Both the position numbers and the translations under genes were made by a program. 64,000 nucleotides of DNA, from positions 806,001 to 870,000 of the forward strand of contig NZ_CP119559.1 in assembly GCF_029278565.1 (NCBI RefSeq), written 5' to 3'. Within the stretch, counting starts at the first letter, position 1, and every line of letters begins with the position of its first letter. This stretch comes from Haloarcula halophila (GTDB lineage: Archaea > Halobacteriota > Halobacteria > Halobacteriales > Haloarculaceae). The notes beneath the pieces were generated by a model. That model was given only the letters and a program-made list of their open reading frames with translations. It searched no databases and was not told the DNA's origin. Shown here piece by piece: positions 10,096 to 24,540 of this stretch.

Positions 10096-10227
10096 TCGAA
10101 CCAGGGCAGTGACTGACGGGGTTTCGGGCCTGTGACGGTGAGCGTTGCGTCCCCCGTCTTCGGACGGCTGTGACAGGCCCCGAGCCAACCCGACGCCGTT
10201 TTGACCGGGGCGGTGCCAGGGTCGTGC

Positions 10228-11962: not shown

Positions 11963-12583
11963 CTAACGGTCCCGCCCGTTCTGTTCCCGGAACCGTTCGA
12001 GAACCGCGACGGTGTCGACGCTCGTCAGCGCCCGGTCGTCGAGCCCGATGGCGTCGCTATCGACGACAGTCGGAGACAACCGCTCCAGCAGTGCGTGGAG
12101 GCTCCGCTCGCCGTCGTCGTAGGCGTCGTCGGCAGCGGCGACCGCCCGGTCGACCCGGTAGACAGCACAGGTCGGTTCGAATCCACCGGCCGTTCGAGGG
12201 ACGACAGTCGTCCCGGCGTCGGCCGCACGCTCCAGCAGCGACGCCAACGACGCGGACGGCACCAGCGGCATGTCGCAGGCGAGGACGACGGCGTACTCGG
12301 TCTCGACGGACGCCAGCGCACGGGTGAGACCGGCCAGCGGCCCCTCGTCGGGCCGGTCGTCGACGGCGAACGTGACCCCGAGGTCGGCGTCGGCGAGGGC
12401 TGTCTCGAACGCCGGGCGCTGGTCGGCCCGGCAGTTCACGACGACTGCGTCGGTCACCGCCGCCAGCGTCCGGACGACGTGAACCAGCAACGGATCGCCG
12501 TCGAGCGTCGCCAGCGCCTTGTCGCCGTCGTCGAACCGGCGCGACCGGCCGCCCGCGAGGACGACCCCAGTAGCCGCGCTCAC
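11963..12583 (-). CDS. mobA: molybdenum cofactor guanylyltransferase MobA
   Basis: Transfers GMP from GTP to molybdopterin to form the (bis-)MGD cofactor needed by DMSO-reductase-family enzymes. 206 residues. The nucleotidyltransferase signature VLAGGRSRRFDDGDKALATL lies at residues 8-27, CDMPLV holds the metal-binding aspartate, and VDDRPDEGPLAGL follows the expected R-P-x-x-GPLAG pattern. It is the last gene of the nar operon: its ATG overlaps the stop of the Mrp gene by four bases. Co-expression with narG makes sense because the enzyme needs Mo-bis-MGD. Confidence 0.92.
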   Translation of the reverse strand: MSAATGVVLAGGRSRRFDDGDKALATLDGDPLLVHVVRTLAAVTDAVVVNCRADQRPAFETALADADLGVTFAVDDRPDEGPLAGLTRALASVETEYAVVLACDMPLVPSASLASLLERAADAGTTVVPRTAGGFEPTCAVYRVDRAVAAADDAYDDGERSLHALLERLSPTVVDSDAIGLDDRALTSVDTVAVLERFREQNGRDR

Positions 12584-13827
12584 GGTTTCACGGTCCGAAG
12601 GAGCCAGTCGTCGGGCGTCTCCCGGCTGACCTCGAAGGGGTCAAAGGCCTCGCGCGGGGCCTCGGCCAGTTGCCCGAGGAACGGACCGACCGGCGTCGGG
12701 TCCCGGTCGCTGACGAGGACGAACGCCTCGCCGGAGGAGAGTTCGCCGAACCGTTCGCGCACGCAGTCCTTTCGCTCCTGGGCCGGGAGGCCGCGGATGT
12801 CGATGGCCCCGTCGGGAACGTCGACTTCGCCGGCCGTCTCGGCGGCGTCGGCGACCGCGTCCGTCAGGTCCACGATCGGGCCGGGAACGTCGCCGGGTGT
12901 GGGCGTCCCCTGTAGGTCGTGGGTGAACGGGAGTCTGGCCAGAACCCGCGCATCCAGGTCCCCGATCCCCGACGGCCCCGCGGCTTCCGCGAAGAGGTCG
13001 TTGGCCTCGCCACAGCAGTCACAGACGTACTCCGCCATGTTGACGACGGTTCCCAGGACCGGCACGTCGTTGTCCCGGAACAGTTCGACGGTCCTGCTCG
13101 TGTCGCTGACGCTGGCGTGGAAGGGGGTCGTGACGACGACGACGCCGTCGACGGGGACCTCCTGCAGCGTCGTCAACACCACGTCGCCGGTCCCCGGCGG
13201 GAGGTCGATCACGAGCACGTCGTCGTTGCGCCAGGCCGTGTTCGAGAAGAGGTCCTCCAGCGCGTCGTGGGCCATCGCACCGCGCCAGGCCAGCGGCGCG
13301 CCGTCCTCCATCAGGCCGACGCTCATCACGTCCATCCCGCCGGTCCGGACCGGCAGCGGGTCCCCCTCGTCGCTGGAGTGGACCGGTCCCGAGATGTCCA
13401 GCAACCCGGGAACGTTCGGTCCGTGGATGTCGGCGTCGAACAAGGCCACGTCGTTGTCGGCCGCCAGCCCGCAGGCGAGGTGGGTCGCGGTCGTGGATTT
13501 GCCGACGCCGCCTTTCGCGCTGGCGACGGCGATCACGTGGTCGAACGCCTCGACCGCCGACCGGCCCTCGCTCGACGGGCTCGTACTCTCGACGTGGACG
13601 CTCTCGACACCGTCGACGTCGTCGACGGCCCGCAACGTCGCTTCGACGATCTCGTCGGCGGTGTCGCCGTCGACGGCCGTCAGATCGGTCTCGATCGTCA
13701 CGTCGCCGGCCTCGACAGCGATGTCTTGGACGAACCCCGCCTCGAAGACGGAGAGGTCGGCCTGTGGGTCACGCACTGCGCGGAGCTGTGCCTCGACACG
13801 ATCGGTCAGCGTCGTTTGTGCTGTCAT
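12580..13827 (-). CDS. Mrp/ApbC-type Fe-S carrier ATPase with C-terminal DUF2249 domain
   Basis: 415 residues in three parts. Residues 1-80 are a MIP18/DUF59 domain. Residues 97-330 form an Mrp/NBP35 deviant Walker ATPase (VASAKGGVGKSTTATHL at 101-117, switch region DADIHGPNVPG, VIDLPPGTGD) with the cluster-binding pair Cys269-x2-Cys272. From about residue 335 to the end is a DUF2249 domain (IDIRGLPAQERKDCVRERF ... LVSDRDPTP ... DDWLLRTVK). The family assembles and transfers Fe-S clusters; DUF2249 proteins are frequent partners of denitrification and molybdoenzyme genes. Four-base overlaps with both neighbours put it inside the nar operon, so a role in loading the Fe-S clusters of NarG/NarH is a reasonable inference. 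Confidence 0.9.
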   Translation of the reverse strand: MTAQTTLTDRVEAQLRAVRDPQADLSVFEAGFVQDIAVEAGDVTIETDLTAVDGDTADEIVEATLRAVDDVDGVESVHVESTSPSSEGRSAVEAFDHVIAVASAKGGVGKSTTATHLACGLAADNDVALFDADIHGPNVPGLLDISGPVHSSDEGDPLPVRTGGMDVMSVGLMEDGAPLAWRGAMAHDALEDLFSNTAWRNDDVLVIDLPPGTGDVVLTTLQEVPVDGVVVVTTPFHASVSDTSRTVELFRDNDVPVLGTVVNMAEYVCDCCGEANDLFAEAAGPSGIGDLDARVLARLPFTHDLQGTPTPGDVPGPIVDLTDAVADAAETAGEVDVPDGAIDIRGLPAQERKDCVRERFGELSSGEAFVLVSDRDPTPVGPFLGQLAEAPREAFDPFEVSRETPDDWLLRTVKP

Positions 13828-16179: not shown

Positions 16180-17000
16180 CACTCCATCCCCCCTCTGGCG
16201 CGGTGAACTCCGAAGGCAGTCACGCCGACGACCGCGACGATGGCGACGCCGGCGACCGACCACAGCAGCGCCTCGTATGGCGGTCCCTGCGGCCCCTCGC
16301 CGAACGGGAAGTAGTGCCACTCCGAGACGGACTTCTGACCGGCCCGCTCGCCGTTCGAGCCGTTCCAGACCGCGAAGGCCACGTCGAGGTCGCCGTCGTC
16401 GGTGATCGTCGTCCGGTTGTCCCCGCTGGCGTCGACAGAGCGGGCGTAGACCACCGACCAGGTACCGTCGTCGTAGCTGGCCTCGGTGTTGACCGCGGGC
16501 TGGTCGAACGCCGTCGTCGAACCGACGCCGCCGGCCAGCAGTTCCTGGGTCCCGGCGTCGGCACTCCAGTACCAGACGTTGACCATGTTCCCGGGACCGC
16601 CCATCGCGATCGGCGGCCGGGAACTGGCGTTGGCCGGGAACTGGACCGCGACCTGATCGGCGAACGCCGCCGGACTGGTAGCGTTTCGGTCCCGGGTCGC
16701 GTCGGCCCACTGCAGCCGCAGGTAGAGCGTGCCGTCGCCCCGTGCCGCCTGGACGTGGACCCGTTCGACGGTCGTGTCGTCGGCGTTCGGGACGCTACTC
16801 GGTGCGCTGGTCAGCGGGACGTCGGCGGCCGGGACCGACTCCCAGCCGTCGGCGGCCGGCGTCGAGAGGTCCCCGGTCGCCGGCGAGACCGGTATCTCGT
16901 GGGCCGGGCGGGCGGTCGCGAGCGGCGCCGCGGCCGTCGCTGCCACCACGATCAGACCCAGCAGCAGTGCCGTGCCGAGCGTGCGCCTGTCGTCAGTCAT
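16179..17000 (-). CDS. exported heme-b-binding gamma subunit (ethylbenzene dehydrogenase gamma-like)
   Basis: 273 residues. A signal peptide covers about residues 1-31 (GTALLLGLIVVAATAAAPLATA), and a single C-terminal membrane helix around 245-265 is followed by a short basic end. The domain between matches the type II DMSO-reductase gamma-subunit family, which binds one heme b through Met and Lys ligands: YLRLQWADATRDRN, PIAMGGPGNMVNVWYWSAD and VAFAVWNGSNGERAGQKSVSEWHYF. It probably passes electrons to NarH on the outer face of the membrane, tethered by its tail. It overlaps narH by 8 bases. A paralogue is at 61805-62869 with the matching PITMGATGDPVNIWYW motif. Confidence 0.83.
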   Translation of the reverse strand: MTDDRRTLGTALLLGLIVVAATAAAPLATARPAHEIPVSPATGDLSTPAADGWESVPAADVPLTSAPSSVPNADDTTVERVHVQAARGDGTLYLRLQWADATRDRNATSPAAFADQVAVQFPANASSRPPIAMGGPGNMVNVWYWSADAGTQELLAGGVGSTTAFDQPAVNTEASYDDGTWSVVYARSVDASGDNRTTITDDGDLDVAFAVWNGSNGERAGQKSVSEWHYFPFGEGPQGPPYEALLWSVAGVAIVAVVGVTAFGVHRARGGME

Positions 17001-18060
17001 CGAAGACCTCCAGTCGGTACTGTTTCGCGGGGTTCTTGTGCTGGAGCAGTTCCATCAGTTCGCTGTCGGCCCCCTGGCGAGCGCGCTGGCGCTCGCGTTC
17101 GATGGTGTCCAAGGCGTCGTCGACGCGGTCGCCGAACAGCTCACGGAGGTACTGGCGCGGGATGCGGTCGACGTCGACCGTCTCGCCGTCCTCGGTGTGC
17201 TGGCCGGGCGCGTACGGCGGGATGTAGTAGACGTTGGGCTGGGTCCGGAACTCCGGATGCAAGGGGAGCGCGACCTCGTACTCCTCGACGAGTTTGTAGA
17301 TGGGGCCGTCCTCGTCGTCGAGGAAGCCAACGAGGCGCAGCTGTGGCGGACACTCCTCGGCACAGGCCGGCGCGTAGGTCTCCCCGTCCGGACCTTCGCC
17401 CTCCAGACGCGGGTAACAGAAGATGCACTTCTCGGATTTCTTCGAGACGGTGTTGTAGTACACCTTCTTGTAGGGGCAGCCCTCGACGCAGTAGCGGTAG
17501 CCCCGACAGCGATCCTGGTCGACGAGGACGATACCGTCCTCGCTGCGCTTGTAGATGGCCGAGCGCGGGCAGGCCTCGACACAGGAGGGGTGGGTGCAGT
17601 GGTTGCAGATCCGCGGGAGGTAGAAGTAGTAGCTGTTGGGGTACTCGCCGGCGCCCTGGTCCTCGTCCCAGTTCGGTCCCCACTCGGCGCCCTCCCGCGG
17701 ACGGAGTGGCTCGTCGCTGCCCTCGTACATGATCTCCTCGTGGTTGAACTCCCAGGAGCGGCCGTACTCCTCGCGGGAGGGGATGTCGCCGGTCTCGCGG
17801 TCCGAGTGGTCCGCGGACTGCCAGCCCCCGCCGGAGTCCTCCCAGCCCCGCGGGTACCCCTCGCCGGGCTTGGTCTCGACGTTGTTCCAGTACATGTAGT
17901 CGGTCCCGCCGCCCTCCGTCCAGAGGGATTTACACGCGATGGTGCAGGTCTGGCAGCCGATGCACTTGTTCAGGTCCATCACCATCGCGACCTGGTGGTC
18001 GACGCCGTCGGCGACGTTGACGTGGGTGTCCTCCCCGTTCTGGCTACTCATCGGACTCAC
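16993..18060 (-). CDS. narH: respiratory nitrate reductase beta subunit (Fe-S)
   Basis: 355 residues with four ferredoxin-type cysteine groups: CIGCQTCTIAC (33-43), CNHCTHPSCVEACP, CRGYRYCVEGCP, and CIFC with a distant CAEECP. In the third group a Tyr takes the position of the Trp found in E. coli NarH, so one cluster is expected to be [3Fe-4S]. The C-terminus carries RTQPNVYYIPPYAPGQH, typical of the NarH/SerB/DdhB line. There is no signal peptide, so it should be exported as a complex with the TAT-bearing NarG. It overlaps narG by 17 bases. Confidence 0.93.
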   Translation of the reverse strand: MSPMSSQNGEDTHVNVADGVDHQVAMVMDLNKCIGCQTCTIACKSLWTEGGGTDYMYWNNVETKPGEGYPRGWEDSGGGWQSADHSDRETGDIPSREEYGRSWEFNHEEIMYEGSDEPLRPREGAEWGPNWDEDQGAGEYPNSYYFYLPRICNHCTHPSCVEACPRSAIYKRSEDGIVLVDQDRCRGYRYCVEGCPYKKVYYNTVSKKSEKCIFCYPRLEGEGPDGETYAPACAEECPPQLRLVGFLDDEDGPIYKLVEEYEVALPLHPEFRTQPNVYYIPPYAPGQHTEDGETVDVDRIPRQYLRELFGDRVDDALDTIERERQRARQGADSELMELLQHKNPAKQYRLEVFDD

Positions 18061-20905
18061 CTCCCGCGGGCCGCACCTCTACGTTCACGTCGCTGTTGAC
18101 GCCGGTCGGCCCCCAGTAGTTCGGGAAGAAGTAGAGGTGCTCGCCGGTGTCCTCGGGGTACTGGACCAACTGGGTCGGCTTCATGTACATCGGGACGAGC
18201 GTGTTGAAGTTGTCCCGGTCGGGGTACTGGAACTTCTCCCAGGCGAAGTACTGCCGGGCGGTCCCCGGTTCGCTGGAGGGGTAGATCTTCGCCTGGACCT
18301 CGACGCTGCCCATGTCGTTGAACACCTCGACGGTGTCGCCGTCCTCGATGCCGCGTTCGGCGGCGTCCTCGGGGTTGAGGTAGACGACGGGTTCACCCCG
18401 CTGGAGCCGGAGCATCTTCTCGCTGTCGCGCCACGTCGAGTGGATCGACCAGCGGCCGTGGGGCGTGTTGTAGGTCAGCGGGTAGTCCCCGCCGGTGTCC
18501 TGCGGGCCGCGCTTGTGGGTCGGCAGTTCCTCGTCGAGTTCGAGGAACCAGTCGTGGTCGACGTAGTACTGCTGGCGGCCGGTGAACGTCGGCCAGGGCT
18601 CCTTGTCGTGGACGTAGTTCTGCCAGGGGACGTAGGCCTCGTCGTCTTTGATGTCGGAGGTCCAGTGGGGGCCGGCCGCGAGCAGGCGCTGGGGCTGGTC
18701 CTCGGTGTCGGCGAAGGTGATCTGTTCGTCGGTGTCGCTGGGGTTGGACTCCTCGGAGTGTTCGAGGATGAACTCCGCGGCCGCGCGGTCTTCCTCCAGT
18801 GCTCCCTCCTCGCCGGTCTCCCAGTCCCGGACGAAGTCGTCGTAGATCGTCGTCAGATCGATCGTCCGGTCGAACTTTCGGTCCTCGACGGGGTCGACGC
18901 CGCGTTCTCGGGCACGTTCCTGGATCGTCTCGGCGAGCAGACGGAAGATCTCCCAGTCGGTCTTTGCCTCCCCCAGCGGTTCGACCGCCGGCGTGAACGG
19001 ATGCACGTAGGTGTGCATGTCCGTCTCCGAGAGGTCGTACTTCTCGTAGTGGCTCGCCGCCGGAAGGACGATATCGGAGTACATCGCCGTCGAGTCCATC
19101 CGGAAGTTGATGTCGACGACGAGGTCGAGTTTCGGCCACAGTTGCTCCTCGACGGCGACGTTGCCCTTGGCCTGGTTGAAGTAGTTGCCCCGCCAGACGA
19201 ACATCGTCGAGGGGTCGGGCCGGAAGCCGTCCTCGCGCTCCTCCGGGTACAGCGGCATCCACCCTTTGTCGATGGACTCCCGGATCTTCTCGGCGGTGTC
19301 GGGGTCGGTGTTGTCGAGGATGCCGCCGTGGAAGTACGTCCACAGCGTCGTCGGCACCCCGCGGACCGACCCGGTCGGGAACGAGAGGACCTTCCAGCCG
19401 TGGAACGTCCAGATCTTCTCCTGGCCGACGTAGTGGTCCAGCCCGGTCCCCGGGTCCCCGAGGTTACCGGTCAGCGTCACGAGCAACTGGATCGCACGGT
19501 TGCCCAGGTCGTTGTGGTACCAGTCGTTGACGCCCTTGCCGTGGATGATCTTCGCGGCGTCGGCCTCGGCGAACTCACGGGCGACCCGCTGGTAGGTGTT
19601 CTCGCCGACGCCGGTCTCCCCGTGGACGAACTCCGGCGTGTACTGGGAGAGTTCGTCCCGCAGGTTCTCCCAGACCGACCGGACCGGGACCTCGCCGTCG
19701 TCGACCTCGACCTCCCGTTCGACGCTCAACTGCGGATCGAAGTCCAGTTCGATGCTGGAGTCGGGGTCGTTCTGGCCGTCGCGCTCGCCCAGCGACCCCG
19801 GCGCACGCCGCAGGGTGCCGTCGGCGTCGACCATCACGAACACCTTCTCGGGGTCGTCGGCGTCCCCCGCGAGGCCGACTTCGCTCGCTCGGAGGAACTT
19901 GCCGGTGTCTTCCCGGACCAACAGGGGCATGTCGGTCTGTTCCTTGAGGTGGGCCTCGTCGTACAACCCCTCGTCGACGATGGTCCGGGCCATCCCAAGG
20001 GCCAGGGCGGTGTCGGTGCCGCCCTCCGGGGAGAGCCACTCGTCGGTGTGGATCGCCGTCTGGGAGTAGTCGGTGAAGATCCCGACCCGTTTGGCCCCCT
20101 CGTAGCCGGCGTCGAGGAAGTACTTCGCGTCGGGGATGCGCGTGACGTTGATGTTCGACCCCCAGGCGATGATGTAGTCGGCGTTGTGCCAGTCGGCGCT
20201 CTCGGCGTTGTCTGTCTGGGTCCCCCAGGTGATCGGCTGGCCCGGCGGCAGGTCCGAGTACCAGTCGTAAAAGGAGTGGGAGACCCCGCCGAGCAGGTTG
20301 ACGAGCCGGCTCCCGGAGGCGAAGGAAACTGGGCTCATCGCCGGGATCGGGGTGAAGCCGGAGATCGCGTCGTACCGCCCCGCCTGGACCTCGTCGATGA
20401 CGTGGTCGGCGATCTCGGTCAGGGCCTCGTCCCAGGAGATGCGCTCCCACTGGCCCTCGCCGCGTTCACCGGTTCGTCGAAGCGGGTGGAGCACGCGCTG
20501 GTCGGCGTTGACGTAGTCGGTGTAACAGGCCCCCTTCTGACAGCCCCGCGGGTTCGGGTCCGGGAGGCTCTCGTCGAAGGTCGGGTAGTCGCCGGCCTGC
20601 TCCTCGCGCCAGACCTGGCCGTCCTTGACGAAGACGTTCCAGGAGCAGGACCCGGTGCAGTTGACGCTGTGGGTCGAGCGGGCGACGGAGTCCCAGTCCC
20701 ACTCGTCGCGGTAGAGGTCCTCCCAGTCGCGGTAGGGATAGTTACCGATCGGGTCGTCGACGGCCTCCAGCCCCTGCATGCCGTCGTCGGCGAAGGAGAG
20801 CCCCGTCGCACCGAGCAACGAGGCCGCACCCAACCCTCGCACGAAGTCGCGTCGACTCAGGGAACTGTCCGTCCAGCGGTCGTCGTCGGGAGTCTGTCTA
20901 CTCAT
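18044..20905 (-). CDS. narG: respiratory nitrate reductase catalytic subunit (Mo-bis-MGD)
   Basis: 953 residues, reducing nitrate to nitrite. The N-terminus is a TAT signal (SLSRRDFVRGLGAASLLGA, Arg18-Arg19), placing the active site outside the cell as known for haloarchaeal pNar. The first Fe-S cluster motif is His79-x3-Cys83-x3-Cys87-x34-Cys122, the NarG spacing. Around residues 212-221 the segment FYDWYSDLPP matches the E. coli NarG region that provides the molybdenum aspartate. QTDNAESADWHNADYIIAWGSN follows as in NarG, supporting nitrate reductase rather than another DMSO-reductase member, though selenate and chlorate reductases are close relatives. It overlaps its neighbours on both sides within the operon. 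Confidence 0.94.
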   Translation of the reverse strand: MSRQTPDDDRWTDSSLSRRDFVRGLGAASLLGATGLSFADDGMQGLEAVDDPIGNYPYRDWEDLYRDEWDWDSVARSTHSVNCTGSCSWNVFVKDGQVWREEQAGDYPTFDESLPDPNPRGCQKGACYTDYVNADQRVLHPLRRTGERGEGQWERISWDEALTEIADHVIDEVQAGRYDAISGFTPIPAMSPVSFASGSRLVNLLGGVSHSFYDWYSDLPPGQPITWGTQTDNAESADWHNADYIIAWGSNINVTRIPDAKYFLDAGYEGAKRVGIFTDYSQTAIHTDEWLSPEGGTDTALALGMARTIVDEGLYDEAHLKEQTDMPLLVREDTGKFLRASEVGLAGDADDPEKVFVMVDADGTLRRAPGSLGERDGQNDPDSSIELDFDPQLSVEREVEVDDGEVPVRSVWENLRDELSQYTPEFVHGETGVGENTYQRVAREFAEADAAKIIHGKGVNDWYHNDLGNRAIQLLVTLTGNLGDPGTGLDHYVGQEKIWTFHGWKVLSFPTGSVRGVPTTLWTYFHGGILDNTDPDTAEKIRESIDKGWMPLYPEEREDGFRPDPSTMFVWRGNYFNQAKGNVAVEEQLWPKLDLVVDINFRMDSTAMYSDIVLPAASHYEKYDLSETDMHTYVHPFTPAVEPLGEAKTDWEIFRLLAETIQERARERGVDPVEDRKFDRTIDLTTIYDDFVRDWETGEEGALEEDRAAAEFILEHSEESNPSDTDEQITFADTEDQPQRLLAAGPHWTSDIKDDEAYVPWQNYVHDKEPWPTFTGRQQYYVDHDWFLELDEELPTHKRGPQDTGGDYPLTYNTPHGRWSIHSTWRDSEKMLRLQRGEPVVYLNPEDAAERGIEDGDTVEVFNDMGSVEVQAKIYPSSEPGTARQYFAWEKFQYPDRDNFNTLVPMYMKPTQLVQYPEDTGEHLYFFPNYWGPTGVNSDVNVEVRPAGGESDE

Positions 20906-21077
20906 GGCTCAGGAACACCGTCACGGTCGCACAGGCGGTACCGACGAGCGCGAGGGCGATGCCGGTCGGCGTCGAACCGCCGGCCTCCAGGCCGGCAGCG
21001 ACGAGGCCGAGCCCGACCAGTTTGCTCGCCGTGTCTAACAGCCGATACTGGCGTCGAGAGAGCGCGATCTCAGTCAT
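20898..21077 (-). CDS. 59-residue two-helix membrane protein between narC and narG
   Basis: A small gene fixed by overlaps on both sides: its start lies inside the end of narC (8 bases) and its stop inside the start of narG (8 bases). The product begins [19 protein letters not shown], then has two hydrophobic stretches (about 20-34 and 38-56) separated by GGSTPTG. Haloarchaeal nar operons carry a small gene at this place. No function known; a stabilising subunit of the cytochrome b/Rieske part is a guess. Confidence 0.75.
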
Positions 21078-22482
21078 CGCTCGTCCCCCCGTCCGTAACT
21101 TTGCCGTCGGCGGTACCGCTGTCGGCAGCGCCACCGTCGGCGGCGACCCCCTCGTCGTCGGGCGGGGCCGACGTGTCCCCGCCGCGCAACAGGAGGTAGG
21201 TGATCCCACCGAGCACCGGCGGAACCCCCAGAAGCGCCGCGGTCAGGATCGGGTTGACGACCTCGGTGGTCGTCCCTAGCACCTGGTCGGCGAGGATATT
21301 GTTCATCCCCGCGATGGAGGCGATCATGACGAAGGCGACGGCGGCCACGCCGACGCCGGTCTGCCAGGGCCGCTGTAGGGGATCGGCAGTGAAGTGGGTC
21401 GGCTCGGGCGTCCGATCGATGAAGGGCCAGGCGGCGATCGCCAGGAAGACGAGCCCCGGAAGCAGGACGCCGCCGACGAACTCGCCGTTGATGTGGGCCG
21501 GCCCGACTGAGAACCCGATCTGGGGCAGCAGCTTCAGGAAGCCGTAGACCCACATCAGGAACCAGTCGGGCATGATCAGCGCCGGGGTACTCGCCGGATC
21601 GTTGGGACCGTACTCGGCGACGTTGTGGACCGGCAACAGGCCGGCAAGCGCCGACAGCGTCGCGGCCGTCAGGAAGAACACGACCGCCGAGACGGCCGCC
21701 TGGTTGGGGACCGCCGGCAGGCCGACGATGACGCTGTCGTCGTCCTTGTCGATCTCCCGATCGCCGGCGACGACGTCGTCCTCACGGGGTGCTTCGGTGT
21801 GTTTCTGGCGTATCAGAATCCACATGTGCAGCGCCAACCCGCCGGCGATCGCCATGGGAATGACCAGCACGTGCAGGAAATACAGCCGGGGGATCGTCGC
21901 GCTGGAGGGGAACTCCCCGCCGAAGACCACCTGCCCGAGGAAATCCCCCAGTAGCGGCACGGAGATCGTGAGGTTGTAGCCGATGCTGGTCGCGGTCGCG
22001 GCGAACTCGTCGAACGGCAGGGCGTAGCCGGTGTAGGCCGCACCCATCGACAGCGCCGCCAGTCCCGTGCCGACGATCCAGTTCGGTTCCCGCGGGTTTC
22101 GGTAGGCCCCGGTGAAGAACACCCTGAGCATGTGCAACCCGATCGAGGCGACGAAAAGATGGGCCGCCCAGTGGTGGAGCCGGCGGATGAACATGCCGAA
22201 GGGCACGTCGTAGGTGATGTGTAACACCGAGACGAACGCCTCGGGCATCTCCTGGCCCTGGAACTTCTCGACGCTGCCGTCGTACTCGACCGCCGAGGTC
22301 GAGGGCTCGAAGAAGAACCCGAGGAAGATCCCCGACAGGACCAACAGGAGGAAACAGAACAGCGCGACCTCGCCCAGCAGGAACGAGTCCTCGGCGGGGA
22401 AGGCCTTCCCGAGGAACTGCTGGCCCCGCTCGACGTCGAGTCGGGTGTCGAACCAGTCGTAGATCCGGTCGGCGCGAGACAT
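21070..22482 (-). CDS. narC: cytochrome b of the nitrate reductase operon
   Basis: 470-residue cytochrome b/b6-type protein with about nine membrane helices. Helix pairs carry the spaced histidines that ligate two hemes: [22 protein letters not shown] and [21 protein letters not shown]. The C-terminal part resembles subunit IV ([26 protein letters not shown], near the PEWY-type quinol site). Its job is menaquinol oxidation, handing electrons to the Rieske protein and then to NarGH. It starts at the ATG overlapping the narB stop (TGATG); a GTG directly before it is also possible. Confidence 0.92.
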
Positions 22483-23120
22483 CACTCACCCCCCGGGCCG
22501 ACTGGGCCCTCGAAGTCGCCGGTCGCGATCAGGGTGCCGTCGCTGGAGATCGTGATCGGGAGCTGCGGGAGCGCCCGCCCCGGCGGTCCGCCCTCGACGC
22601 TCGCGCCGGAGAGCGGATCGAACTTCCCGAAGTGACACGGGCAGACCAGCAGATCCCCGTCCCGGTTCCCGACCATACAGCCGGCGTGGGTACACACCTT
22701 CGAGAACGCCGCGTAGCCGCTGACCGTAAAGCCCTCCTTGACGTTGCTGTAGGCCGATTCCGAGTAGCGGACCAGCAGCGTCGGCGCGTCCTCGATCCCG
22801 GGCCGGGGTTCGGGGAAGACCGTCATGTGTTCGCCCTCCGAGAGACGGCCCTCCTGGATGGGTTCGCCCTCGCCGTCGACCAGGGTGACGCCGTCGGAGT
22901 AGATCGGTCCCTCGTAGCTGCGCTCGAACACCTGGGTGGTGCTCGCGAGCGGTGCCGTCAGGCTCGCGACGGCCGTCAGGCCGCCGACGGTCGCGAGGAA
23001 CTTCGCGAAGTCACGCCGCCGGAGTTCGGCCCGCGCGTCGCTGTAGAGGCTCTGGCGGGTCGCCGGGGTCTCGCTACAGCCGCAGTCCTCGGTCTCGTCG
23101 TCGGGTTTCGGGTAGTCCAT
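22482..23120 (-). CDS. narB: Rieske [2Fe-2S] protein of the nitrate reductase operon
   Basis: 212 residues. A TAT-type anchor ([28 protein letters not shown], residues 32-59) leads to a Rieske domain with box I Cys143-Thr-His145-Ala-Gly-Cys148 and box II Cys160-Pro-Cys162-His163. Cys143, His145, Cys160 and His163 should hold the cluster, with Cys148-Cys162 as the disulfide. The N-terminal DCGC is odd for the family. It accepts electrons from cytochrome b (narC). ATG overlaps the narA stop. Confidence 0.92.
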
Positions 23121-23698
23121 CAGTCGTGCCTCCTGTATTCCGCGACCTCGACGTGTGGCATGAACCAGGCGTAGTACGCGACCGTCGACAGCGCCAGCGA
23201 GACGAACATCCCCGTGGCGTACAGCCCGAAGTACTGGGTCCGGGCCAGAGTCAGGTACTCGCCGGTGAACAGCGCCGCGAAGACGATCGAGAGGACGGTC
23301 AACCCGCCCATCGCGACCAGCCCCTCGATGGCGTCCGAGGCGTCGTGGTACTCGACGACCCAGCGGTTGTCCGATTCGAGCCACGGCAGGCTCGCCGTGA
23401 GTTGCCCGCCGTCGGCCACGGGCGCTTCCTCCGGTGGTCGGACGGCCCGGTTCATGAACTGGTGAGCGCCGGCCAGGACGCCGACGAGGCCGAAGAGCGC
23501 GACCCAGACGACGACCCCGACCTGGCTGGGCGAGAGCTTGTTCGGCGTGTCGATCGGCCCCTCCAGCGGTCGGAGGTCAGTGACGCTCTCGTCGATCGCG
23601 ATCTCCTCGGAGGGTGGTTCGCCGTGTAAGGCGACGTACCACATCGGAAGCAACACCGTGGTCACCAGCAGGACGATGAGTATCGTGTTCCGTCTCAT
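23120..23698 (-). CDS. narA: NarA-type membrane protein, first gene of the nar operon
   Basis: 192 residues with four hydrophobic helices: 5-24, about 58-80, about 122-146 and 152-178. Between the first two is a polar stretch (EEIAIDESVTDLRPLEGPIDTPNKLSPS). No heme or metal motif is evident. Position at the head of a narB-narC-narG-narH operon matches the gene called narA in Haloferax. Function is not established; membrane assembly of the Rieske/cytochrome b part is plausible. The operon promoter and palindrome lie 106-142 bases upstream. Confidence 0.8.
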   Translation of the reverse strand: MRRNTILIVLLVTTVLLPMWYVALHGEPPSEEIAIDESVTDLRPLEGPIDTPNKLSPSQVGVVVWVALFGLVGVLAGAHQFMNRAVRPPEEAPVADGGQLTASLPWLESDNRWVVEYHDASDAIEGLVAMGGLTVLSIVFAALFTGEYLTLARTQYFGLYATGMFVSLALSTVAYYAWFMPHVEVAEYRRHD

Positions 23699-23803
23699 GG
23701 GTTGGGTGAGGGCTGGTATGATAGTCCGCTGACTGTTCGGTCCGGTCCCTCGTATCCGGCTCTTGCAAGACGACGACGGTGAACGTCAGACCAAACATCT
23801 CGG

Positions 23804-23813
23804 GTATTTTTTA
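23804..23813 (-). promoter_or_regulatory. TATA box of the nar operon
   Basis: Read on the minus strand the sequence is TTAAAAAATA preceded by TTCCCC, a good haloarchaeal BRE/TATA pair. Transcription should start near 23780, giving a leader of about 80 bases before narA, unlike the leaderless pattern of most genes here. Confidence 0.6.
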
Positions 23814-23828
23814 AGGGGAATTCCGCGC

Positions 23829-23840
23829 CGAACATGTTCG
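23829..23840. promoter_or_regulatory. 12-base palindrome, candidate NarO operator
   Basis: CGAACATGTTCG is a perfect inverted repeat lying 15 bases upstream of the nar BRE/TATA region, the right place for an activator. From memory, haloarchaeal denitrification promoters (nar, nirK, nor) carry an inverted repeat of this CGAA-N4-TTCG form that responds to NarO. It is also 40 bases before the narO start, so it could serve autoregulation. Confidence 0.6.
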
Positions 23841-23880
23841 CACTGGATTATTTCACTCGAACCGGTCGATATCCCGACAG

Positions 23881-24540
23881 ATGTCCCGGCGGGTGCTCGC
23901 GGAGGTAGAAGTGGTCGACCCACAGGCGTGCCAGGTCCAGCCCCACGCCAGCGAGGAGCGGCACGTCGCTTCTGTCTCCCGGAGCGCGCTTGGCGGTGAC
24001 GAGGGTGAGGTCGTCGAGGAGTTCACGCTGGTCGCCGACGGCGATTCCCCACCATCACCGGACGACCACGCGAACGTCCAGGAGGTGTTCGATTACGACC
24101 AGGGACGGATCTACCGCCTCCATCGACAGGCTGGACAGGGGTGTGTCTGTGAGCGGATCGAGCGAGCGGGCTGTGTCGTCCAGGAGTTAAGCGCCACCGA
24201 GCGGTCCCTGACGGTGACCTTCCTGGTCGAGGACGTGGCCACGCTCAGGGACGTGATCGGCGACCTCCAGTCGACGGGCGAGTGCGTCAGCCTCCGGCGG
24301 CTTGTCGAGACCGACGACTCGCTGGACCGGAGCCGACCCGTCGTCCTCGACCGGGAGAAACTGACCGGCCGCCAGCGGGAGGTCCTGGAACGCGCCCACG
24401 AGATGGGCTACTTCGAACACCCGCGGACGGCCAACGCGGGCGAGGTCGCGGACGACCTGGGGATCACGACGGCGACGTTCACCGAACACCTCGCGGCCGC
24501 CCAGCGGAAGGTGTTCGGCGACCTCCTGGACGAGCCGTGA
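23881..24540 (+). CDS. narO: NarO-type HTH_10 transcriptional regulator
   Basis: 219 residues, divergent from the nar operon. The C-terminal 55 residues form a bacterio-opsin-activator-type helix-turn-helix (LTGRQREVLERAHEMGYF ... ADDLGITTATFTEHL). The N-terminal half has the cysteine pattern Cys-x(n)-Cys-x-Cys-x7-Cys: QACQ near residue 19, then CVCERIERAGC near 88-98. This is the motif described for NarO, an oxygen-responsive activator of denitrification genes in Haloferax, probably through an Fe-S cluster. The palindrome at 23829-23840 lies between narO and narA. A TTATTT element at 23848 could drive it. It is followed by moaB, moaC and mobB-moaE. Confidence 0.85.
   Translation: MSRRVLAEVEVVDPQACQVQPHASEERHVASVSRSALGGDEGEVVEEFTLVADGDSPPSPDDHANVQEVFDYDQGRIYRLHRQAGQGCVCERIERAGCVVQELSATERSLTVTFLVEDVATLRDVIGDLQSTGECVSLRRLVETDDSLDRSRPVVLDREKLTGRQREVLERAHEMGYFEHPRTANAGEVADDLGITTATFTEHLAAAQRKVFGDLLDEP

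Follow-up and report, generated by a model that had tools for sequence, protein, structure and literature searches.

The palindrome between the divergent nar and narO genes, here called P1, is a further example of an operator that was described in 2017 or earlier. It is a perfect 12-bp palindrome, CGAACATGTTCG, and lies in a window, by which we mean the whole stretch of 64,000 nucleotides analysed, that covers C1:806001-870000 of the 4.04-Mb, four-contig genome of the haloarchaeon Haloarcula halophila. We consider it probable, at about 0.72, that P1 is an operator of the haloarchaeal denitrification regulon, shared by the divergent narO and nar promoters and read by an HTH_10 protein, for which our preferred candidate is a regulator encoded elsewhere in the genome and called R2 below. 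The comparison of loci supports R2 as a specific candidate for the motif's binding protein, would make the narO promoter, rather than the nar promoter, the main owner of P1, and cautions against naming a regulator from adjacency alone.

A sequence-only reading of the window had placed a perfect palindrome between the nar promoter and a NarO-like gene, 15 bases from the nar BRE/TATA element and 40 from the regulator, and had assigned it the position of an activator site for nar. The palindrome is indeed there, the distances given are off by at most one base, being 14 nt for the nar element and 40 nt for the ATG of the regulator gene, and the position relative to nar is of the activator type in the present lineage (Table 1). 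The regulator belongs with the NarO type, having both DmsR_N and HTH_10 domains and a gene that adjoins nar and diverges from it; the four cysteines that had been claimed for it, in the spacing Cys-x(n)-Cys-x-Cys-x7-Cys, are present as C17...C88-V-C90-x7-C98, a pattern reportedly given for NarO in the abstract of Hattori and colleagues. The fourth cysteine is replaced by serine in the nar-linked NarO of one locus (L048) and by tyrosine in a DmsR_N paralog (L016:9281-9919). The same two domains liken the protein to DmsR of Halobacterium (PF24277 for DmsR_N), from which the locus differs in that the neighbouring operon is nar and not dms. The order of membrane protein, Rieske protein, cytochrome b, molybdoenzyme and iron-sulfur subunit is what we take to be the haloarchaeal nar arrangement. 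The 30 nearest NarO relatives with loci all adjoin nar, and a search of the plasmid collection with the nar-narO intergenic region, which measures 182 bp, gave no match. Elsewhere in the window (12580-13827, minus strand) lies an Mrp/NBP35-type ATPase with a C-terminal DUF2249, a domain that occurs also in palindrome-controlled genes.

Table 1. Features of the nar-narO region, in window coordinates, and the copies of CGAAYATRTTCG found in the genome
Feature	Position	Strand	Basis or remark
narH-type iron-sulfur subunit	16993..18060	-	TIGR03478 over cut-off
narG-type molybdoenzyme, DMSO reductase family type II alpha	18044..20905	-	TIGR03479 over cut-off
Cytochrome b gene, nar operon	21070..22485	-	PF13631/PF00033
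Rieske protein gene, nar operon	22482..23384	-	PF00355; gene probably starts downstream of the listed ORF start
192-aa membrane protein of nar operon	23120..23698	-	Adjoins narO in 30/30 loci
Dyad P2, CCCGAGATGTTTGG (CCnnA-n4-TnnGG)	23791..23804	-	Just downstream of nar TATA
nar TATA element, TTAAAAAATA	23805..23814	-	Starts 14 nt from P1
P1 palindrome, CGAACATGTTCG	23829..23840	none	Probable shared operator of the divergent narO/nar promoters; position kept in 35/46 nar-linked NarO loci
narO promoter, TATA-like ATTATTT	23847..23853	+	Predicted from sequence; 28-34 nt before narO ATG, leaderless geometry
NarO-like regulator, DmsR_N + HTH_10, Cys 17/88/90/98	23881..24540	+	Pfam domain matches and Cys positions
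Genomic site 1			Between nar and narO
Genomic site 2			DUF2249 gene and divergent NnrS-like membrane gene (named by resemblance, without Pfam match)
Genomic site 3			A second DUF2249 gene
Genomic site 4			Cupin gene and divergent 185-aa gene
Genomic sites 5 and 6			Tandem, before HTH_10 regulator R2
Genomic site 7			qNor gene; palindrome 67 nt upstream of nor start

The identity of the motif follows from the comparison with Haloferax. P1 is an exact match to the semi-palindromic motif of H. mediterranei, CGAAYATDKTYG (PMC10062603; PMC11218638), and throughout the genome its copies stand upstream of denitrification genes. As given in the promoter passages of PMC10062603, the nos and nor copies are letter for letter CGAACATGTTCG and the nir copy is CGAATATGTTCG; mutating the motif lowered nos and nor activity significantly, the drop at nir was not significant, and nar activity did not fall when the divergent nar motif was mutated. 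The nor copy lies 66 nt upstream of the start there and 67 nt upstream here. The nar regions differ: in H. mediterranei the copy is poor, 319 nt upstream and not needed, and the motif is used without any NarO according to the same passages, whereas the present locus has a perfect copy between nar and narO. The present locus shares its core palindrome, and a regulator of the same family beside nar, with H. volcanii (Hattori et al. 2016, via PMC5746218 and PMC10062603), where, in the text portions that we cite, CGAA-X4-TTCG is common to the denitrification promoters and that of ahbD (PMC5746218), is essential at nirK (Hattori et al., as cited in PMC5746218), and NarO is required for denitrification (as cited in PMC10062603 and PMC11218638). 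PMC11218638 has the motif in front of DUF2249 genes and also, in the nirK-nor cluster, in front of a gene similar to bacterioopsin activators; its authors suggest that the latter may act as a regulator and describe the protein that binds the motif as not known. This gene of H. mediterranei is probably an ortholog of R2. A full-text literature search for the 12-mer CGAACATGTTCG listed two papers, PMC10062603 and one on p53.

The comparison rests on 46 nar-linked NarO loci, namely the 30 best NarO matches, 14 of 45 loci from the class (L285-L329) and two loci of g10. From the class set, we removed L290 and L294, which duplicate L050 and L051, and left out L302, L303, L314 and L316 (5' end missing), L327 (no nar match) and the remaining loci without a linked NarO. 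In 35 of the 46 loci, a copy of P1 with at most one mismatch precedes the narO start by 38-41 nt (SD 1.0); these 35 represent five families. About a third of the 46 are very close species of one genus, and the NarO match of one locus, L308, is weak (34%). At the expected place, no copy within one mismatch was found in the other 11 nar-NarO pairs, including two of the genus Haloferax (L300 and L301), whose intergenic regions thereby differ from the present one.

The protein that reads P1 is probably an HTH_10 protein, and on balance we lean towards R2. It is encoded outside the window (C1:2651473-2652117) and lacks DmsR_N, HTH_10 being the only family over the cut-off. Two palindromes 35 bp apart precede its gene (L014:9128-9174, the same as C1:2652128-2652174), the distal one at activator distance and the proximal one at the presumed start, and the tandem looks like positive plus negative self-control. 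The arrangement recurs. In the family, each of 30 loci carries an exact distal copy 38-50 nt upstream of R2, 28 of them also have an exact proximal copy at 3-10 nt, and a spacing of about 35 bp between the two is usual among near relatives. Across the class, of 80 named loci (the 80 best of the 210 found), 66 hold an exact copy at 35-55 nt, or 71 if one mismatch is accepted, and the neighbours in this set are frequently qnor, nirK, NnrS-like, DUF2249 or radical-SAM genes. Our preference stems from the presence of the palindrome at R2's own promoter throughout the class, the nar-NarO pairs that lack the site, and the retention of the motif in genomes without DmsR_N. In Haloferax elongans, the nar-narO region (L301) has no copy within one mismatch and the R2 locus (L222) has four consensus copies; the two g10 loci (L267 and L269) similarly have a nar-narO region without a copy and one copy each 38-46 nt before R2. 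The motif persists in genomes that have no DmsR_N match: in G014, G039, G043 and G065 one copy precedes an R2-like gene by 38-44 nt, and the R2-like neighbourhood of G014 resembles, in sequence, a nirK/DUF2249/cupin cluster. The two cases from genus g3 (G039:C2:255356 in L169 and G043:C2:970994 in L168) have the palindrome 39 nt before the R2-like gene, more copies nearby, and neighbours that are not obviously denitrification genes.

The sequence-only reading had instead taken the adjacent NarO for the reader, in which case NarO would switch on nar and the autoregulation of narO would be a by-product. As stated, that assignment is not supported, given the 11 of 46 pairs without P1, the use of the motif without NarO in the H. 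mediterranei passages of PMC10062603, the motif-bearing R2-like genes of genomes lacking DmsR_N, and the presence of P1 at R2 itself; the pairs without a site disfavour an obligate link between NarO and the palindrome in particular. We nevertheless regard NarO as a serious second contender, behind R2: P1 is found at every one of the 30 closest NarO loci linked to nar, the DmsR_N regulators of another search mostly have no exact upstream copy (1 of 30 loci does), and the cited parts of the H. volcanii literature make NarO necessary for denitrification (PMC10062603, PMC11218638) and the palindrome essential at nirK (PMC5746218). That some third protein binds the site seems improbable. The presence and absence of R2 and DmsR_N across 146 genomes fails to separate the two candidates. 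In this table, which was compiled by hand with our own cut-offs and may include non-orthologs among the R2 "relatives" with weak E-values, genomes with neither regulator average 0.84 copies of the motif, and those with neither that are at least 90% complete, mostly of genus g3, average 2.56; the presence of R2 is uninformative because R2 relatives occur in 258 of the 292 genomes of the class. As for NarO without R2, the DmsR_N loci of genomes lacking R2 (L254-L264) are not next to nar, and no such case was found among them.

P1 appears to be primarily an activator-type site of the narO promoter, because its distance to the narO start is fixed and that to the nar TATA, picked by hand in each locus, varies from 12 to 198 nt across the loci with P1. 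The two distances are uncoupled, being 38 and 198 nt in L044, 38 and 133 nt in L323, 38 and 46 nt in L291, and 38 and 29 nt in L297. In the present genus, P1 lies 38-40 nt before narO in 23 of 23 loci, our own included, and in 22 of these the nar TATA is 12-14 nt away; seven loci with longer spacers, from two other genera, have beside the narO copy an extra degenerate one that differs at 1-2 positions and precedes the nar TATA by 11-12 nt. Given the latter two observations, P1 probably serves nar too in the present locus, which would be a compact form in which one palindrome does both jobs. It is less likely, and in our view unlikely, that P1 acts on narO only, its nearness to the nar TATA in this genus being incidental and nar being controlled through a second dyad, P2: the four uncoupled loci would fit, as would the P2-type dyads, which 31 of 46 loci have at a fixed place downstream of the nar TATA, but the spacing to nar within the genus and the separate P1-like copies at the nar promoters of other genera speak against it. 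Of the earlier claim of a nar operator, then, the denitrification-regulon operator at the nar activator position stands, and the anchoring to nar does not, the site being fixed to the narO start (35/35) and not to the nar TATA. The claim of a complete local switch fails as well, since six further consensus sites lie elsewhere, at nor, DUF2249 and cupin genes and, twice, before another HTH_10 regulator. The H. volcanii narO promoter is reportedly active both with and without oxygen, which is an argument against strong regulation of narO.

Under the preferred reading, with a shared operator read by an HTH_10 protein, P1 would occupy about -52 to -41, counted from the start codon of narO, directly upstream of the BRE/TATA of a presumed leaderless transcript. 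A dimer bound there would help to recruit TBP and TFB at narO, and the same dimer, 14 nt upstream of the nar TATA on the other strand, would raise nar transcription; the reader would be activated when oxygen is low, and possibly by N-oxides. The analysis shows the sequence of the site, where it lies, how far it is conserved, and that it goes with denitrification-type genes; the start sites, activation rather than repression, and the use of one site for both genes are what we infer. A more tentative scheme, rather unlikely in its entirety, makes R2 the class-wide reader, controlling itself through its two palindromes and also narO, nor and the DUF2249 and cupin genes, with NarO as a second tier acting on nar via P2.

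P2 may be a second operator of nar, and it may be bound by a paralogous protein of the HTH_10 family, perhaps NarO. Dyads of this type start 9-11 nt after the start of the nar TATA in 31 of the 46 loci; of the other 22-nt windows in the same spacers, 0.8% contain one. Most of the 15 loci without the consensus have a related CCC...GTGG form (CCC...GTGGTC in other families). The spacing of the dyad is that of CCGAACATGTTCGG, the palindrome with its often-flanking C and G, and the half-site differs. We considered whether P2 is specific to NarO-linked nar and rejected the idea: by eye, a similar dyad is found at some nar promoters without a linked NarO (L305, L310-L313). In four of these loci, all of genus g26 (L310-L313), CCGAAYAGTTCGG, a relative of the palindrome one base shorter, comes right after the TATA.

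As a bare word, the palindrome is near chance, and its placement, at promoters and at a conserved position, exceeds it. CGAA-N4-TTCG occurs twice in the window against 1.99 expected, with Markov models predicting about 200 copies for the 4.04-Mb genome, and the seven genomic copies of CGAAYATRTTCG are only a modest excess over the 2.0-2.4 expected (Markov orders 3-4). That P1 is a chance palindrome without function, as these frequencies could suggest, is refuted by conservation and has next to no probability, its place being kept in 35 of 46 loci and its sequence matching exactly sites whose mutagenesis mattered in H. mediterranei, in the promoter experiments cited from PMC10062603. A control with the reversed pattern (0 copies in our genome; 390 forward against 5 control copies in the 146 genomes) was rejected as evidence, being too lenient because its expectation in our genome is about 0.03-0.12, compared with 2.0-2.4 for the motif.

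The sequence-only reading had expected the palindrome to recur at denitrification promoters, and this is largely borne out: all seven copies of CGAAYATRTTCG are at promoters of denitrification-type genes, with an exact match at nor, and nirK has an upstream copy with one mismatch, CGAACACGTTCG, at a distance of 58 or 103 nt according to which start codon is taken. A profile search of the genome for NosZ gave none over the cut-off. The looser pattern CGAANATNTTCG adds two copies, both CGAAGATCTTCG and both within predicted genes, and copies with at most one mismatch occur in 43 places genome-wide. For six start codons the distance to a palindrome is 38-40 nt, those of the DUF2249, NnrS-like and 185-aa genes having been picked among alternatives, and two sites are flanked by such starts on both sides. 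At these two (L013:8496-8507 and 10106-10117), a start codon 38-39 nt off on each side gives the layout of a symmetric bidirectional promoter.
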